Shown here piece after piece: positions 21,801-41,871 of a DNA stretch of 44,006 bases. The stretch is taken from NCBI RefSeq assembly GCF_012911975.1, contig NZ_SMDQ01000047.1:1-44006 (forward strand). The letters run 5' to 3'. The DNA is from Nodosilinea sp. P-1105. Its GTDB lineage: Bacteria; Cyanobacteriota; Cyanobacteriia; Phormidesmidales; Phormidesmidaceae. The translations under genes and the position numbers were made by a program. The number at the start of each line of letters is the position of its first letter. Position 1 is the stretch's first letter. A model generated the notes under the pieces. That model made no database searches. It was not told the origin of the DNA and saw nothing but the letters and a program-made list of their open reading frames with translations.

Positions 21801-22955
21801 ATGACGTTTACCATCCCCTTTAACCCCGCCGATATTGCTGCCCTAGAGCGATTCAGTAACGGACCAGGATTTGGTTGCACATCACTGACCTACCTCGATG
21901 CCAACGGCAACGCCTACCACGGGCGGACAATGGAGTTGGGGCAAGACTTTCCTTACCAACTCGCCTACTTTCCGGCTGGGCAAACCTTAAAGTCTGTGGC
22001 AGGCGATGCCCCGGCCCTGACCTACACCACCGAATACGCCATGTTTGTGGTGACCATGCCAGATCGGATTCCCACGGCGGAGTCTCCCATCACCCCTGCC
22101 GATCTGAAGGTGCTAGAAGGGATTAACGAAGCGGGCCTGTCGTTTAACCTGAATGCCTATCCTTCCGTGGGCGGAGCACAGCAACAGCTCGACCTGACCC
22201 AGGCGGTGCTCTCGGTGGTTGATCTCGGTTCCTGGGCGCTGGGCAACTTTAAGACCGTTGCGGCGGTGAAGGCGGCCCTGGCCGAGCAGCCGGTGGCCCT
22301 AACACCGCTGGATATCCTCAAGGGGGCTGCCGCACCCTTTCACTACCTGTTGAGCGATCGCACCGGGGCCAGCATTGTGGTCGAGTTCCATGAGGGCACC
22401 ATGACCGTCTACGACAACCCGGTCGGGGTCATGACCAATGGCCCCCGCTTCGACTGGCACCTGACCAACCTGAACAACTACACCTATCTCAGTAATATCG
22501 ATCAATCCACCAACACATTCGGCTCCCTGCAGGTCCACCAGCCCGACTCCGGCATCGCCACCGTGGGCCTACCCAGCTCCAGCACCTCCGTGGGGCGGTT
22601 TATTCGAGCGGTCTACTACACCCAGTACACCGAAAAAGCTACCGACCCCGATACGGCAGTGCTGGCCCTGTCCCACATCATGAATAATTTTGATCGGCCC
22701 AAGGGCGTTAGCATCGACCCCCGCACTGACGGCGGCGGCGAAGGGGGCGTGCTCGCCGAGGGGGATACCGAATATACGCCCTGGACCATCTTGGCGGATC
22801 TGAACCGGGCGCGGGTGTTTTTGCGCACCTACAACGGGCTAAACTATACCCTGTTCGACCTCAAGCAGATGGCCCAAACCAAGGCCATAAAAGTCATGCC
22901 CCTGGCCCAGCTAGAGGGGCTGGCCCCCGATGGCACGGCGACTCTCCTCCAGTGA
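21801..22955 (+). CDS. Choloylglycine-hydrolase-family amide hydrolase
   Basis: A 384-residue Ntn-hydrolase of the bile-salt hydrolase / penicillin V acylase family (linear amide C-N hydrolases). The nucleophile is probably Cys26 in GPGFGCTSLTYLDANGNAYH, which would be exposed by removal of a 25-residue propeptide; no secretion signal is seen. Other family marks are HGRTMEL, SFNLNAYP, MTNGPRFDWHLTNL (the TN.P motif) and VGRFIRA with the conserved Arg. The ATG at 21801 was chosen, because the frame before it is the tail region of FUSC. It starts 10 bases after the FUSC stop and so belongs to the exporter operon. Likely reaction: cleavage of an N-acyl amide; bile salts are unlikely in this setting. 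Confidence 0.9.
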   Translation: MTFTIPFNPADIAALERFSNGPGFGCTSLTYLDANGNAYHGRTMELGQDFPYQLAYFPAGQTLKSVAGDAPALTYTTEYAMFVVTMPDRIPTAESPITPADLKVLEGINEAGLSFNLNAYPSVGGAQQQLDLTQAVLSVVDLGSWALGNFKTVAAVKAALAEQPVALTPLDILKGAAAPFHYLLSDRTGASIVVEFHEGTMTVYDNPVGVMTNGPRFDWHLTNLNNYTYLSNIDQSTNTFGSLQVHQPDSGIATVGLPSSSTSVGRFIRAVYYTQYTEKATDPDTAVLALSHIMNNFDRPKGVSIDPRTDGGGEGGVLAEGDTEYTPWTILADLNRARVFLRTYNGLNYTLFDLKQMAQTKAIKVMPLAQLEGLAPDGTATLLQ

Positions 22956-23032
22956 CTGGGAATACTGCCACCACGGTGTTGGAAAATCTTTAGCAGGAGC
23001 TGAATTGGGCCTTGCTGTCGGCCATTCATGTC

Positions 23033-24232
23033 TCACTGACTGCCGTTATGGTCCTCGGAACTGTTGTCCGAAGCTTCCTCCAGGGACTGGAACCAGGTCT
23101 GGCGAATCCTTTGCATGCTTATTTGGGAAGGCAATTGCAAAATGTAATGGTTCAGTTCCCGCGTCAGGGGGCTATTGAGGGGTAAGGCAATGCCGTAGGG
23201 CTGGGAACCTAGACTGAAGCTGGCCACTTGGTACGGTACCTTGGGATGCTGGTGCAGGTAGTACTCCAGGGATAGGCGAGTGGACACCACGCCATCGACC
23301 TGCTGGAAAGCCAGCAGGTCGATCGCAGCTTCGAGACTCTCAGTCACACTAACCCTAGCCTGGTAAAACTGCGCCCATCGCTCGGCTGCCGCCCCCCCGT
23401 CAACGACCGCAATGCGGACACCCGCCAGTTCATGGGGCTGGCTGAGCCGCTGGGAAGGTTGGTTTGAAAACGCCACTGCCAGGGTTGTTGCGATCCCCGC
23501 TGTTAGCGATGTGACGATCACCAGAGAAAGAATCATCCAGACGGCAGCAATGGTGCGTCCCAGGGGAGTAATCGGCACCCGATCGCCATAGCCGACAGTG
23601 GTGAAGGTTGTGGTCGCGCACCATATGCCCTCGCGGATCCCTTCCCTGTAGGTCTTGGGGAACTGCTCGTTGTCCTTGTGTTCTGTCCACCAGAGCAGAT
23701 TTCCCACTACAAAAAACGACAGAAAAATTCCCCCTACGGAGGACAAAAACGTCCATCCGAGGAAGGGTTGGAAAGTCCTCCATAGGGTGGGAGGCTCGCT
23801 GGGTCGGAGGACGGTCAGGTCGCCCTGGCTGATGGGTTGAGTAAAGTCGTACTTGGCAATGCGATCGCTGGTAATACTGATGCTACCTATGGCCAGATCA
23901 ACCTCCCCTTTATCCAGAGCCGCTAAGCTGGTTTCTACCGTAGAGTAAGCCACCAGTTCGTAACTGAGCATCATCTCCTGGGCGAGTTCCTGCCAGTATT
24001 CCACGATGATGCCACTGGGCTCACCTGCGGTGACAATCACGCTGGGCGGTTCTCCAGCCACCCCAACCCTGACCTGCCGTCCCTCATTGGGCAAACGTTG
24101 AGCGTAGAGTATCGCGGCTGACTGGCTTGGAATAGTGTCTGCCCTGCCGGAAAGAGCGCCATTCCCCCCGATCCAGACTGCCAAACTAATCAAACATAAA
24201 ACGTACTGTCTGGTTCTTAGATAGAAGGTCAT
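23033..24232 (-). CDS. GluR0-like ligand-gated K+ channel
   Basis: A 399-residue protein with a signal peptide (about 1-31) and an SBP_bac_3 amino-acid-binding domain split by a pore module. S1 spans about residues 53-150 (VRVGVAGEPPS, GEVDLAIGSISITSDRIAKYDFTQP; Arg124 is the expected ligand-carboxylate contact). Next come helix 157-180, a pore loop with the K+ filter TTVGYGD at 211-217, helix 226-254, and then S2 at about 260-380 (GVRIAVVDGGAAAERW, VDGVVSTRLSLEYYL). This is the topology of Synechocystis GluR0 and ionotropic glutamate receptors. Oddity: the S2 position usually holding the amine-binding Asp seems to be Thr (about residue 318). Convergent with the choloylglycine hydrolase gene, 77 bases apart. 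Confidence 0.9.
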   Translation of the reverse strand: MTFYLRTRQYVLCLISLAVWIGGNGALSGRADTIPSQSAAILYAQRLPNEGRQVRVGVAGEPPSVIVTAGEPSGIIVEYWQELAQEMMLSYELVAYSTVETSLAALDKGEVDLAIGSISITSDRIAKYDFTQPISQGDLTVLRPSEPPTLWRTFQPFLGWTFLSSVGGIFLSFFVVGNLLWWTEHKDNEQFPKTYREGIREGIWCATTTFTTVGYGDRVPITPLGRTIAAVWMILSLVIVTSLTAGIATTLAVAFSNQPSQRLSQPHELAGVRIAVVDGGAAAERWAQFYQARVSVTESLEAAIDLLAFQQVDGVVSTRLSLEYYLHQHPKVPYQVASFSLGSQPYGIALPLNSPLTRELNHYILQLPSQISMQRIRQTWFQSLEEASDNSSEDHNGSQ

Positions 24233-24415
24233 ACGTAAATAGTGCTATGGGGCGCTGTAGGCCCGGATATTTCACAAGAACAGATGAATCAGGCACAAAA
24301 ACCAGCGAGAATGCATAGCTACGAAGGGTTCAACGATTTGTAGCCCTACCCCCAATTCAACCAGAGTGTACCTCAACTGACTGATGCTCTAAAACGTGTA
24401 AATTCAATGCGTTGA

Positions 24416-24518
24416 TCAACTCGGGGCATCGGGATCCTGTTTGGCCCCTCTACCCTGGCGGCGCTGCCTCAGTTCGTAGAGGCCAAACAGCCCGGCCCCC
24501 ACCGCCAGGAAAGAAGTC
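24416..24518 (-). pseudogene. Possible PEP-CTERM-like tail fragment
   Basis: The minus frame ending with TGA at 24416-24418 reads TSFLAVGAGLFGLYELRQRR followed by QGRGAKQDPDAPS. A glycine-rich helix followed by Arg residues is like the sorting tail of PEP-CTERM proteins, but the PEP motif itself is absent because the sequence breaks into the hydrolase relic at about 24520. Confidence 0.25.
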
Positions 24519-24521
24519 AAT

Positions 24522-24713
24522 CAACCCGGTCGGGAGCGTAACCAACGGCCCCCGCTTTGACTGGCATCTGACCAACCTGAGCCACTATACTTGCCTCAGC
24601 AATGTCGATCAGCTCACCAACACCTTTGGTTCCCTGAAAGTTAGCCAGCCCGACTTCAGCATTGCCACCTCGATGGCCTAGCTCCCGATGCCACCGCCAC
24701 CCTACTCCAGTGA
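24522..24713 (+). pseudogene. Relic of a second choloylglycine hydrolase
   Basis: The translated stretch VTNGPRFDWHLTNLSHYTCL, then SNVDQLTNTFGSLKVSQPDFS, matches the intact enzyme at 21801-22955 (MTNGPRFDWHLTNLNNYTYL). After IATSMA the frame stops, and the following bases (LPDATATLLQ, stop at 24711-24713) match the extreme C-terminus of the intact enzyme (APDGTATLLQ). About 120 residues between these two parts and the entire N-terminus are missing. It is a diverged, internally deleted duplicate. Confidence 0.85.
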
Positions 24714-24726
24714 CTCCCCTGACCCC

Positions 24727-25554: not shown

Positions 25555-25560
25555 GGATTC

Positions 25561-25668
25561 TCTAGAACGCCGGTACAGATCCCAGGGCAGAACCCTGGGA
25601 TACCCCAAAATTCCTGGCTAACCAGCCCAAGAACCCTGGGATCTTGACATACTGTACCGATGCTCTAG
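25561..25668 (-). repeat. CTAGAG/TCTAGA repeat, copy B
   Basis: A 108-base unit running from TCTAGAACGCCGGTACAG to CTGTACCGATGCTCTAG. The two ends are imperfect inverted repeats of each other (CTAGA.C.CCGGTACA with CTAGAGCATCGGTACA, then GATCCCAGGG on both sides), so the whole can fold on itself. The internal CCCAGGGCAGAACCCTGGG forms a further hairpin. It starts six bases after the stop of the upstream hydrolase gene. Confidence 0.8.
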
Positions 25669-25728
25669 GCATTGCATAACAGATACTGAATCCGCCTTGG
25701 TAAACCCCGATTCATCATCAGAAATCCC

Positions 25729-25773
25729 GTAGGGGCGTAGCATGTGTCACGCGCTGTCAGGGTATGCCCCTAC
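25729..25773. repeat. GTAGGGGC palindromic repeat
   Basis: GTAGGGGCGTA (25729-25739) pairs with TATGCCCCTAC (25763-25773), one mismatch, 23-base loop. It is of the type commonly scattered between genes in filamentous cyanobacteria. Confidence 0.6.
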
Positions 25774-25876
25774 AAAGCGGGTGTATTCAAATAGGATGCG
25801 GTAGTCACAGCTCTGTCGGATGTTTCTAAAATGTAGGGTAAGCCTGCCCATGAGCCAGACGTTTTTAGACAACACC

Positions 25877-40803: not shown

Positions 40804-41871
40804 ATGCCCTCGCGCTCTAACCGTCCCCGCTACCGTGAAACGATCGTTGAAGAAAATTACCGGCGCACCCGACGACACCTGGTTCGGGGGGCAGTCGCCC
40901 TAGGCTTCGTCATCTTCTCGGGGGTACTGTGGTATCGGTTTGTTGAAGGCTGGAGCTGGTTGGATGCCACTTACATGTCAGTCATTACCCTGTCCACCGT
41001 TGGCTTTGGGGAAATCAACCCCCTGAGTCCTCGGGGTCGCCTGTTTACCATTCTGCTAATTTTGACTGGCGTCGGCGTCATTGCCTATATCCTGAATAAT
41101 TTCACAGAAGCCATTGTCCAGGGTCATTTCCAGGCTGGTTTTCGACTGTTAAAGCGACGTAGATTCATGGACTCCTTAACCGGACATTACATTATTTGTG
41201 GCTATGGCCGCACTGGCAGCCAGATTGCCGCCGAATTTGCCGCCGAAGCCGTGTCCTTTGTGGTGGTGGACCTGGACGATGGCTCCATCCAGGCGGCCCA
41301 GCAGGTGGGTTATACCACCATCCAGGGGGATGCCACCCACGACCAGGTTCTGTTGCAGGTCGGCATTGAACGGGCTCGCTGTCTGGTGGCCGCCCTGCCT
41401 TCCGATGCCGAAAATCTCTACACAGTCCTATCCGCTAAAAGTCTCGCTCCCACCATCCGCACCATAGCCCGGGCCAGCACCGAAGAGGCGATTCAAAAGC
41501 TGAAGCGAGGTGGAGCAGATGTGGTGGTATCACCCTACATTACGGGTGGCAAACGCATGGCGGCGGCGGCCCTGCGGCCCCAGGTCGTAGACTTTCTGGA
41601 TGGTATGCTAACTGGGGCCAATCGCACCGTCTATGTGGAAGAGTTCTTGTTAGACCCTAAGGTCTGCCCGGTGGTTGGGCAAACCCTGCGAGAAGCCCAA
41701 CTGGGTAAGCAATCGGGGGCGCTGTTGCTGGCCATTCGTCGCGAAGATGAGACCCTGATCGTCGGCCCTACCGCTGATACCCGACTGTACCCTGGCGACC
41801 TGGTGATTAGCATGGGCACCATGGATCAACTGCGGCGGCTCAGCCAAATTCTTAGCCCCATTCCGCGATAG
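40804..41871 (+). CDS. 2TM potassium channel with RCK (TrkA-N/TrkA-C) domains
   Basis: A 355-residue channel. Two transmembrane helices (about 27-44 and 78-100) surround the pore loop with filter STVGFGE (64-70). The cytosolic RCK domain starts with HYIICGYGRTGSQIAAEFA (nucleotide-binding GxGxxG, about 133-138), VVVDLDDGS, YTTIQGDATHDQVLLQVGIE and ARCLVAALPSDAEN. It ends with a TrkA-C domain (about 265-350: VGQTLREAQLGKQSGALLLA, LYPGDLVISMGT). Such channels gate K+ flow in answer to nucleotides or Ca2+. It is followed 23 bases later by the SpmA-SpmB fusion, probably in one operon. Confidence 0.94.
   Translation: MPSRSNRPRYRETIVEENYRRTRRHLVRGAVALGFVIFSGVLWYRFVEGWSWLDATYMSVITLSTVGFGEINPLSPRGRLFTILLILTGVGVIAYILNNFTEAIVQGHFQAGFRLLKRRRFMDSLTGHYIICGYGRTGSQIAAEFAAEAVSFVVVDLDDGSIQAAQQVGYTTIQGDATHDQVLLQVGIERARCLVAALPSDAENLYTVLSAKSLAPTIRTIARASTEEAIQKLKRGGADVVVSPYITGGKRMAAAALRPQVVDFLDGMLTGANRTVYVEEFLLDPKVCPVVGQTLREAQLGKQSGALLLAIRREDETLIVGPTADTRLYPGDLVISMGTMDQLRRLSQILSPIPR

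Follow-up and report, generated by a model that had tools for sequence, protein, structure and literature searches.

GluR0 is discussed as an ancestral form of the animal glutamate receptors, and in GluA2 the residues Pro478, Thr480, Tyr405 and Glu402 have roles in the ligand pocket. GluR0 (Slr1257 of Synechocystis) and its cyanobacterial orthologues constitute Group 1 of the prokaryotic ionotropic glutamate receptors (iGluRs) as classified in Ger et al. 2010 (PMC2950845), and that paper reports both the Arg and the Asp of the pocket to be invariant throughout prokaryotic Groups 1 and 2. Functions have also been assigned to Arg485, Asp705 and positions 653, 655 and 732 (PMC12226733), while the N and C termini of GluR0 are reported to lie outside and its Q127 is given as a dimer residue in the accessible portions of PMC13099474. 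Our literature search on GluR0, which covered few subscription papers, returned no description of prokaryotic iGluRs lacking the Arg or the Asp. The current study concerns a GluR0-type gene in the window, a 44,006-nucleotide stretch of DNA from Nodosilinea sp. P-1105, whose product retains the K+ channel layout and the Arg, and has lost the Asp together with several other residues of the pocket.

The channel protein and its ligand pocket

The gene is a single open frame of 399 codons plus a stop, with no internal stops, and its product has the S1-TM-pore-TM-S2 layout within one chain according to Pfam, an AlphaFold model and VIA-align (Table 1). Pfam matches exceeding their own cut-offs are SBP_bac_3 (residues 54-382), Ion_trans_2 (201-251) and Lig_chan (169-265), and the closest solved protein by sequence is the ligand-binding core of GluR0/Slr1257 (1ii5, E 3.4e-26). 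The AlphaFold model, built from 49 aligned proteins, has a mean pLDDT of 88.7; its top VIA-align match is likewise 1ii5 (Z 29.6, rmsd 1.9, 217 residues) and its second is NpGluR0 (2pyy, Z 27.0), while a Foldseek ranking by E-value places AMPA receptors first and 1ii5 17th. Residues 211-217 read TTVGYGD. The first-pass annotation, made from the letters of the DNA, had named a GluR0-like K+ channel with this filter, and layout, Pfam, the 1ii5 match and the trees described below all agree with it.

Table 1. Features of the channel gene, its product and the surrounding segment (positions are those of the window).
Feature	Position	Strand	Basis
GluR0-type K+ channel gene, altered ligand pocket (399 aa)	23033..24232	-	ORF, Pfam, AlphaFold, VIA-align
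N-terminal hydrophobic segment, signal-peptide-like, residues 1-32	24137..24232	-	by inspection; model helix 2-23
S1 lobe, residues 54-144	23801..24073	-	Pfam and VIA-align; limits set by hand
Ser64 in place of Phe (57/57 canonical rows)	24041..24043	-	alignment
Ser117 in place of Pro (54/57 canonical rows; remaining 3 Ser)	23882..23884	-	alignment
Arg124, carboxylate Arg, retained	23861..23863	-	alignment
TM1, pore loop and TM2, residues 156-256	23465..23767	-	alignment and model; limits set by hand
Selectivity filter VGYGD, residues 213-217	23582..23596	-	translation, alignment
S2 lobe, residues 266-382	23087..23437	-	Pfam and VIA-align; limits set by hand
Gly280-Ala281 in place of Thr/Ser-Thr/Ser loop	23390..23395	-	alignment
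Thr318 in place of amine-binding Asp	23279..23281	-	five alignments
Channel-carrying segment (1.7 kb), absent at the G013 syntenic site	22956..24664	.	synteny comparison
Remnant of a duplicate CBAH (linear amide hydrolase) gene, resembling 22415-22562 at 80%	24522..24668	+	sequence comparison

Two residues serve as criteria of a functional glutamate receptor, an S1 Arg for the ligand carboxylate, which is present in the window protein as Arg124, and an S2 Asp or Glu for the amine, in whose place it has Thr318. This combination makes the pocket non-standard. Both residues had been read in this way beforehand, and the alignment with GluR0 that had been proposed as a check puts Thr318, and no acid, at the amine-binding site. 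Thr318 stands opposite the Asp of Asp-bearing relatives, with no gap there, in five alignments (phmmer to 1ii5/2pyy, three by MAFFT, and one of 1ii5 with a profile built from the window protein and two orthologues), and residues 317-320 include no acidic residue in either the sequence or the alignment. Misalignment at the Asp site was rejected, as all five agree. Ser119, Thr121 and Tyr346 are retained in addition to Arg124. The earlier claim of an altered pocket was correct in calling it non-standard but incomplete, as positions 64, 117, 280, 281 and 318 are all changed, and changed across a clade. At 280-281 the alignment is ambiguous by one residue, with a one-residue insertion adjoining, and position 281 is also Asp in four canonical rows. 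The neighbor of the Asp site, Phe317 (54/57 canonical rows, the remaining three having Ser), is Ser in the window protein.

The canonical rows derive from an alignment of the 78 rows closest to the window protein among 164 relatives. Fifty-seven remain after removal of the six clade members, the Asp-less L064, L166, L167, L296, L169, L162, L168 and L160, as well as L066, L067, L164, L179, L293, L170b and the 1ii5 row. Phe64 and Arg124 are each found in 57/57 of these rows; Asp318 is too, by construction, because Asp-less rows were excluded beforehand. The broken-frame loci L066, L075, L107 and L109 were left out of one MAFFT alignment, and L066 re-entered the 78-row alignment as a fragment.

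A clade with changed pocket, pore and gate

Six full-length proteins from four genomes form one clade: the window protein, L149/L171, L170, L258/L286, L259/L288 and L287. Its support is SH-aLRT 100 in a quick 77-row tree, which leaves out L066, L067, L164, L179, L293, L170b and 1ii5 and adds six outgroup rows, and 100/100 in a careful 72-row GluR0 tree with the pocket columns removed, which retains L067, leaves out the other six of those rows and does not resolve the nearest neighbors of the clade. In both trees the window protein groups with Slr1257-like proteins, and in the 72-row tree it joins two copies from genome G599 with support 99/92. Among the other rows, L057/L061 match GluR0 almost exactly in their S1/S2 motifs. 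Placement of the window protein as sister to the L064-type Asp-less channels (shared one-residue insertion, REG/REA before the pore) was rejected, as the trees disagree.

In the order listed above, the clade members have S, A, E, A, A, G at position 64, S, S, S, G, G, G at 117, T, S, P, S, S, S at 318 and R, R, R, N, N, N at 124. The aromatic residue, the Pro and the Asp are thus missing in all six and Arg124 is also missing in three, which on the simplest reading suggests that loss of the Asp preceded loss of the Arg. A seventh copy, 5'-truncated and the third in G599, has Asp at site 318, so that Asp loss may be incomplete in that lineage. Gln132 is retained in 6/6 members and presumably corresponds to GluR0 Q127, an equivalence that we derive from the Arg117 numbering. 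Across the 72 tree rows, Asp occupies position 318 in 58 and is absent from 14, and its state changed four or more times, which amends the statement of total conservation as it stands in the available part of Ger et al. 2010 (PMC2950845). Three other Asp losses can be seen in the GluR0 tree, in L064/L166/L167/L169/L296, in L162 with L168, and in L160; L167 and L296 lack the Arg as well.

When examining the distribution of relatives, the channel gene was found in just 1/26 congeneric genomes. At a threshold of E 1e-45, the 63 genomes of the window's order yielded a single further match, with 35% identity. A sample of 388 genomes from the class reached at most 46%, in proteins that retain the Asp. 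Kin at 61% identity came from G599, one of 291 genomes of another order in the class, and a three-row profile run against 388 genomes of the G599 order contributed two copies in G660 and one in G657. The three G660/G657 proteins are just 45-46% identical to the window protein, and their clade membership rests on the trees. A canonical GluR0 is encoded in both of these genomes as well, which makes the altered type an additional paralogue in them. A contig scan using the single window protein as query gave no match, and a plasmid search returned 23 records, the best 15 of the 23 being 23-28% identical. The only other GluR0-like match in the window genome is L068 (G000:C174:108000-114500; gene at about 110674-111666 of C174), which has no VGYGD filter, a Tyr at the Arg site and a Pro at the Asp site. 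The Pro is common to L068 and seven relatives (L126, L131-L135 and L147), indicating that pocket alteration extends to a group devoid of the K+ filter.

The TVGYG filter is present in all six clade members, the window protein included. Conservation among canonical rows is at least 95% in 48 columns, and eight of these (F64, L169, F205, V208, L210, S241, T252 and D318) are changed in 6/6 members, while E61, I125, E201, C205 and F210 are invariant in the six clade rows and occur in none of the 57 canonical ones. The clade-specific residues of the pore and gate helices are C205, T/A208, F210, T/A241 and A/S252.

Despite these changes, the relatives show dN/dS values of about 0.2, as in canonical GluR0, which indicates proteins in use rather than pseudogenes: 0.18, 0.20 and 0.25 within the clade (three full-length pairs, two of which share a protein), 0.21 and 0.20 in two canonical pairs, and 0.29-0.30 in pairs with the truncated G599 fragment. 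In every pair that includes the window gene, dS is saturated. For the pocket itself we chose eight contact columns (64, 117, 119, 124, 280, 281, 318 and 346), partly from GluA2 contacts. They differ in 7/32 comparisons over the clade pairs, of which there are only four, versus 2/152 over 19 canonical pairs hand-picked from the tree rather than drawn, and their release measured against other differences in the ligand-binding domain (LBD) has a Fisher P of 5e-4, or 0.02 in sister pairs alone. Extended to 22 columns, the pocket of the clade still evolves more slowly than the remaining LBD, with a pocket/rest ratio of 0.49 in two sister pairs and 0.62 in two deeper pairs, and the idea that the whole pocket evolves faster than the LBD was rejected accordingly. 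Compared with canonical pairs, this wider pocket gives P 0.42 if the comparison is confined to sister pairs and 0.03 once the deeper pairs are included, and a clear release is confined to the eight contact columns. It appears from these rates that the glutamate-specific constraint is gone at the contact columns and that the domain is under normal selection.

Genomic setting

The flanks of the channel gene are 83-89% identical to those of the congener G013, in which the CBAH and hydrolase matches adjoin and the channel segment is absent. Absence of the channel from the other 25 congeners favors a gain in the window genome over a loss in G013. A CBAH-family hydrolase gene lies in the 22415-22562 region, with a decayed partial second copy beyond the channel gene, and a 51-bp repeat (78% identical) is located at both borders of the segment, at 22907-22957 and 24665-24715. 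Positions 25557-25803 hold a short dispersed repeat with many genus-wide copies, mostly 70-93% identical.

A gene for an MscS-type channel is located 0.5-2.9 kb from the GluR0-type gene in 3/5 other clade loci, and 9.0 kb away in the window. These three neighbors are 58-89% identical to each other, making them related copies that perhaps reflect one event. A custom profile found MscS-type genes in 3/40 non-clade loci, of which Pfam confirmed two and detected nothing in the truncated ORF of the third, and MscS as a conserved partner of all GluR0s was rejected on this count. MscS-type genes lie 26-229 bp from GluR0-type genes at L341 (L153), L323 (L157) and L349 (L162). Among the references of PMC13099474 are papers titled on MscS-type channels as glutamate exporters, and it is conceivable that MscS and GluR0 form an export-and-sense pair. 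The same source ties GluR0 to cell volume under KCl stress, which by analogy makes an osmotic role of the channel plausible.

Other channel genes were also encountered. In G599, a pentameric neurotransmitter-gated-type gene (Neur_chan_LBD, L171:2308-3408) is separated by about 0.9 kb from a GluR0 copy with an altered pocket and is followed by two DUF389-type genes. The window encodes a second K+ channel at 40804-41871 (Ion_trans_2 with TrkA_N/TrkA_C), a relative of which is 20 bp from the canonical GluR0 of G660.

Readings of the altered pocket

Predicted fold, filter, contact loss, clade and constraint are all computed here for the channel, and several inferences can be made regarding its function. 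It is likely that the protein no longer acts as a GluR0-style receptor for alpha-amino acids, a conclusion in which two readings join. The one that we tentatively prefer, at somewhat less than even confidence, is a derived-clade GluR0-type K+ channel gated by something other than glutamate, with its cleft retuned to another small molecule. The pocket is coherent within each half of the clade, which speaks in favor of a ligand of some kind: S117, S119, T121 and R124 are identical across the three members of the window half, and L258 and L259 differ at 0/8 contacts and at 20/178 other LBD sites.

A less probable, though still substantial, alternative is that the flytrap binds no small molecule, and either rests closed, so that the channel stays open and leaks K+, or responds to another stimulus such as tension or ionic strength. 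Contact columns evolving near the LBD-average rate, without special constraint, also fit the absence of any ligand, half of the clade has neither Arg nor Asp, and the pore and gate helices changed along with the pocket; against this, the pocket as a whole is more conserved than the remaining LBD. Glu61 (6/6 clade rows versus 0/57 canonical rows), which may be the match of the interlobe contact E402 in GluA2, could hold the cleft shut. The best precedent is placozoan AKDF1, which lacks the amine Asp and has a constitutive leak current (PMC12226733, in its available part), whereas the Asp replacements in the clade are small (Thr, Ser, Pro) and the title of the leak-receptor paper in its reference list names hydrophobic ones.

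It is considerably less probable that the protein is still an alpha-amino-acid receptor of weaker affinity, with the amine held by Thr318, Ser119, backbone carbonyls or Glu61. The four pocket residues retained in the window protein are consistent with such a receptor, but the aromatic residue, Pro, Thr-Thr and Asp are all replaced, no acid stands at 317-320, and the sister half has exchanged Arg for Asn. A decaying gene or an assembly artefact is very unlikely. The occurrence in a single congeneric genome and the draft state of the assembly (195 contigs, estimated contamination 3.7%) would allow for either, but the frame is intact, the AlphaFold model is confident, dN/dS in relatives is low (dS of the window gene itself being saturated), the flanks resemble those of G013 and the GC content of the gene matches that of the contig (0.56 versus 0.57); the open frame and the dN/dS of relatives argue against a pseudogene in particular. 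Least credible is a GABA sensor acting in concert with gadB/gadC, as suggested in the first-pass annotation, since gadB (TIGR01788, over its cut-off; 6.0 kb away) and the gene for a GadC-like antiporter (4.2 kb away; its best-matching model stays under the cut-off) have no counterpart within the available flanks of 45 other GluR0-type loci (40 outside the clade and 5 within), the channel segment is missing from the syntenic site of G013, and GABA itself has an amine. Those flanks are mostly about 7 kb and several are shorter than 1.5 kb on one side, so a more distant gad gene would have been missed.

Under the preferred reading of a retuned cleft, the periplasm-facing Venus-flytrap domain would still be folded and selected, and would have moved off glutamate and other alpha-amino acids. 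In the window half of the clade, the ligand is probably a carboxylate or other anion held by Arg124, Ser117, Ser119 and Thr121, with no need for an alpha-amine, and the Asn124 half would presumably accommodate some different ligand. Closure of the cleft would then open the K+ pore, which may serve ionic or osmotic adjustment. A clade with stepwise pocket loss, together with canonical copies in two of its genomes, provides a compact and soluble model in which to study how an iGluR pocket switches ligand or turns ligand-free, a question also relevant to placozoan receptors, plant GLRs and the IRs of insects.

With GluR0 (Slr1257) and its orthologues, the window protein shares the S1-TM-P-TM-S2 order, TVGYGD, the fold, Arg124 and the tree clade. 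It is distinct from GluR0 in the replacement of the aromatic residue at 64, Pro117, Thr-Thr 280-281 and Asp318, and in F205C, V208T, L210F, S241T and T252A of the pore and gate helices. NpGluR0 (2pyy) and the Group 2 prokaryotic iGluRs have the same S1/S2 fold, but in NpGluR0-like rows the VGYGD filter is missing and the Arg and Asp are retained. Natural loss of the amine Asp is paralleled in placozoan AKDF1 and some GluE1-alpha, and loss of the carboxylate Arg in GluE2-alpha, according to the accessible text of PMC12226733, although these are animal receptors, and in AKDF1 the Asp became Tyr. The insect and protostome IRs similarly combine iGluR-family LBDs lacking some or all glutamate contacts with a retained channel (PMC2924276, seen in part). 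It is possible, though we regard it as rather doubtful, that cyanobacteria have their own equivalent of the insect IRs, a duplicated and patchily distributed GluR0 clade that includes the window protein, has abandoned glutamate and senses other periplasmic molecules, and in which pocket residues diverge even between the copies of one genome and the pore and gate helices change alongside. The IRs are animal chemosensory receptors, and the likeness lies in the way of working, whereas among solved proteins the window protein is nearest to GluR0.
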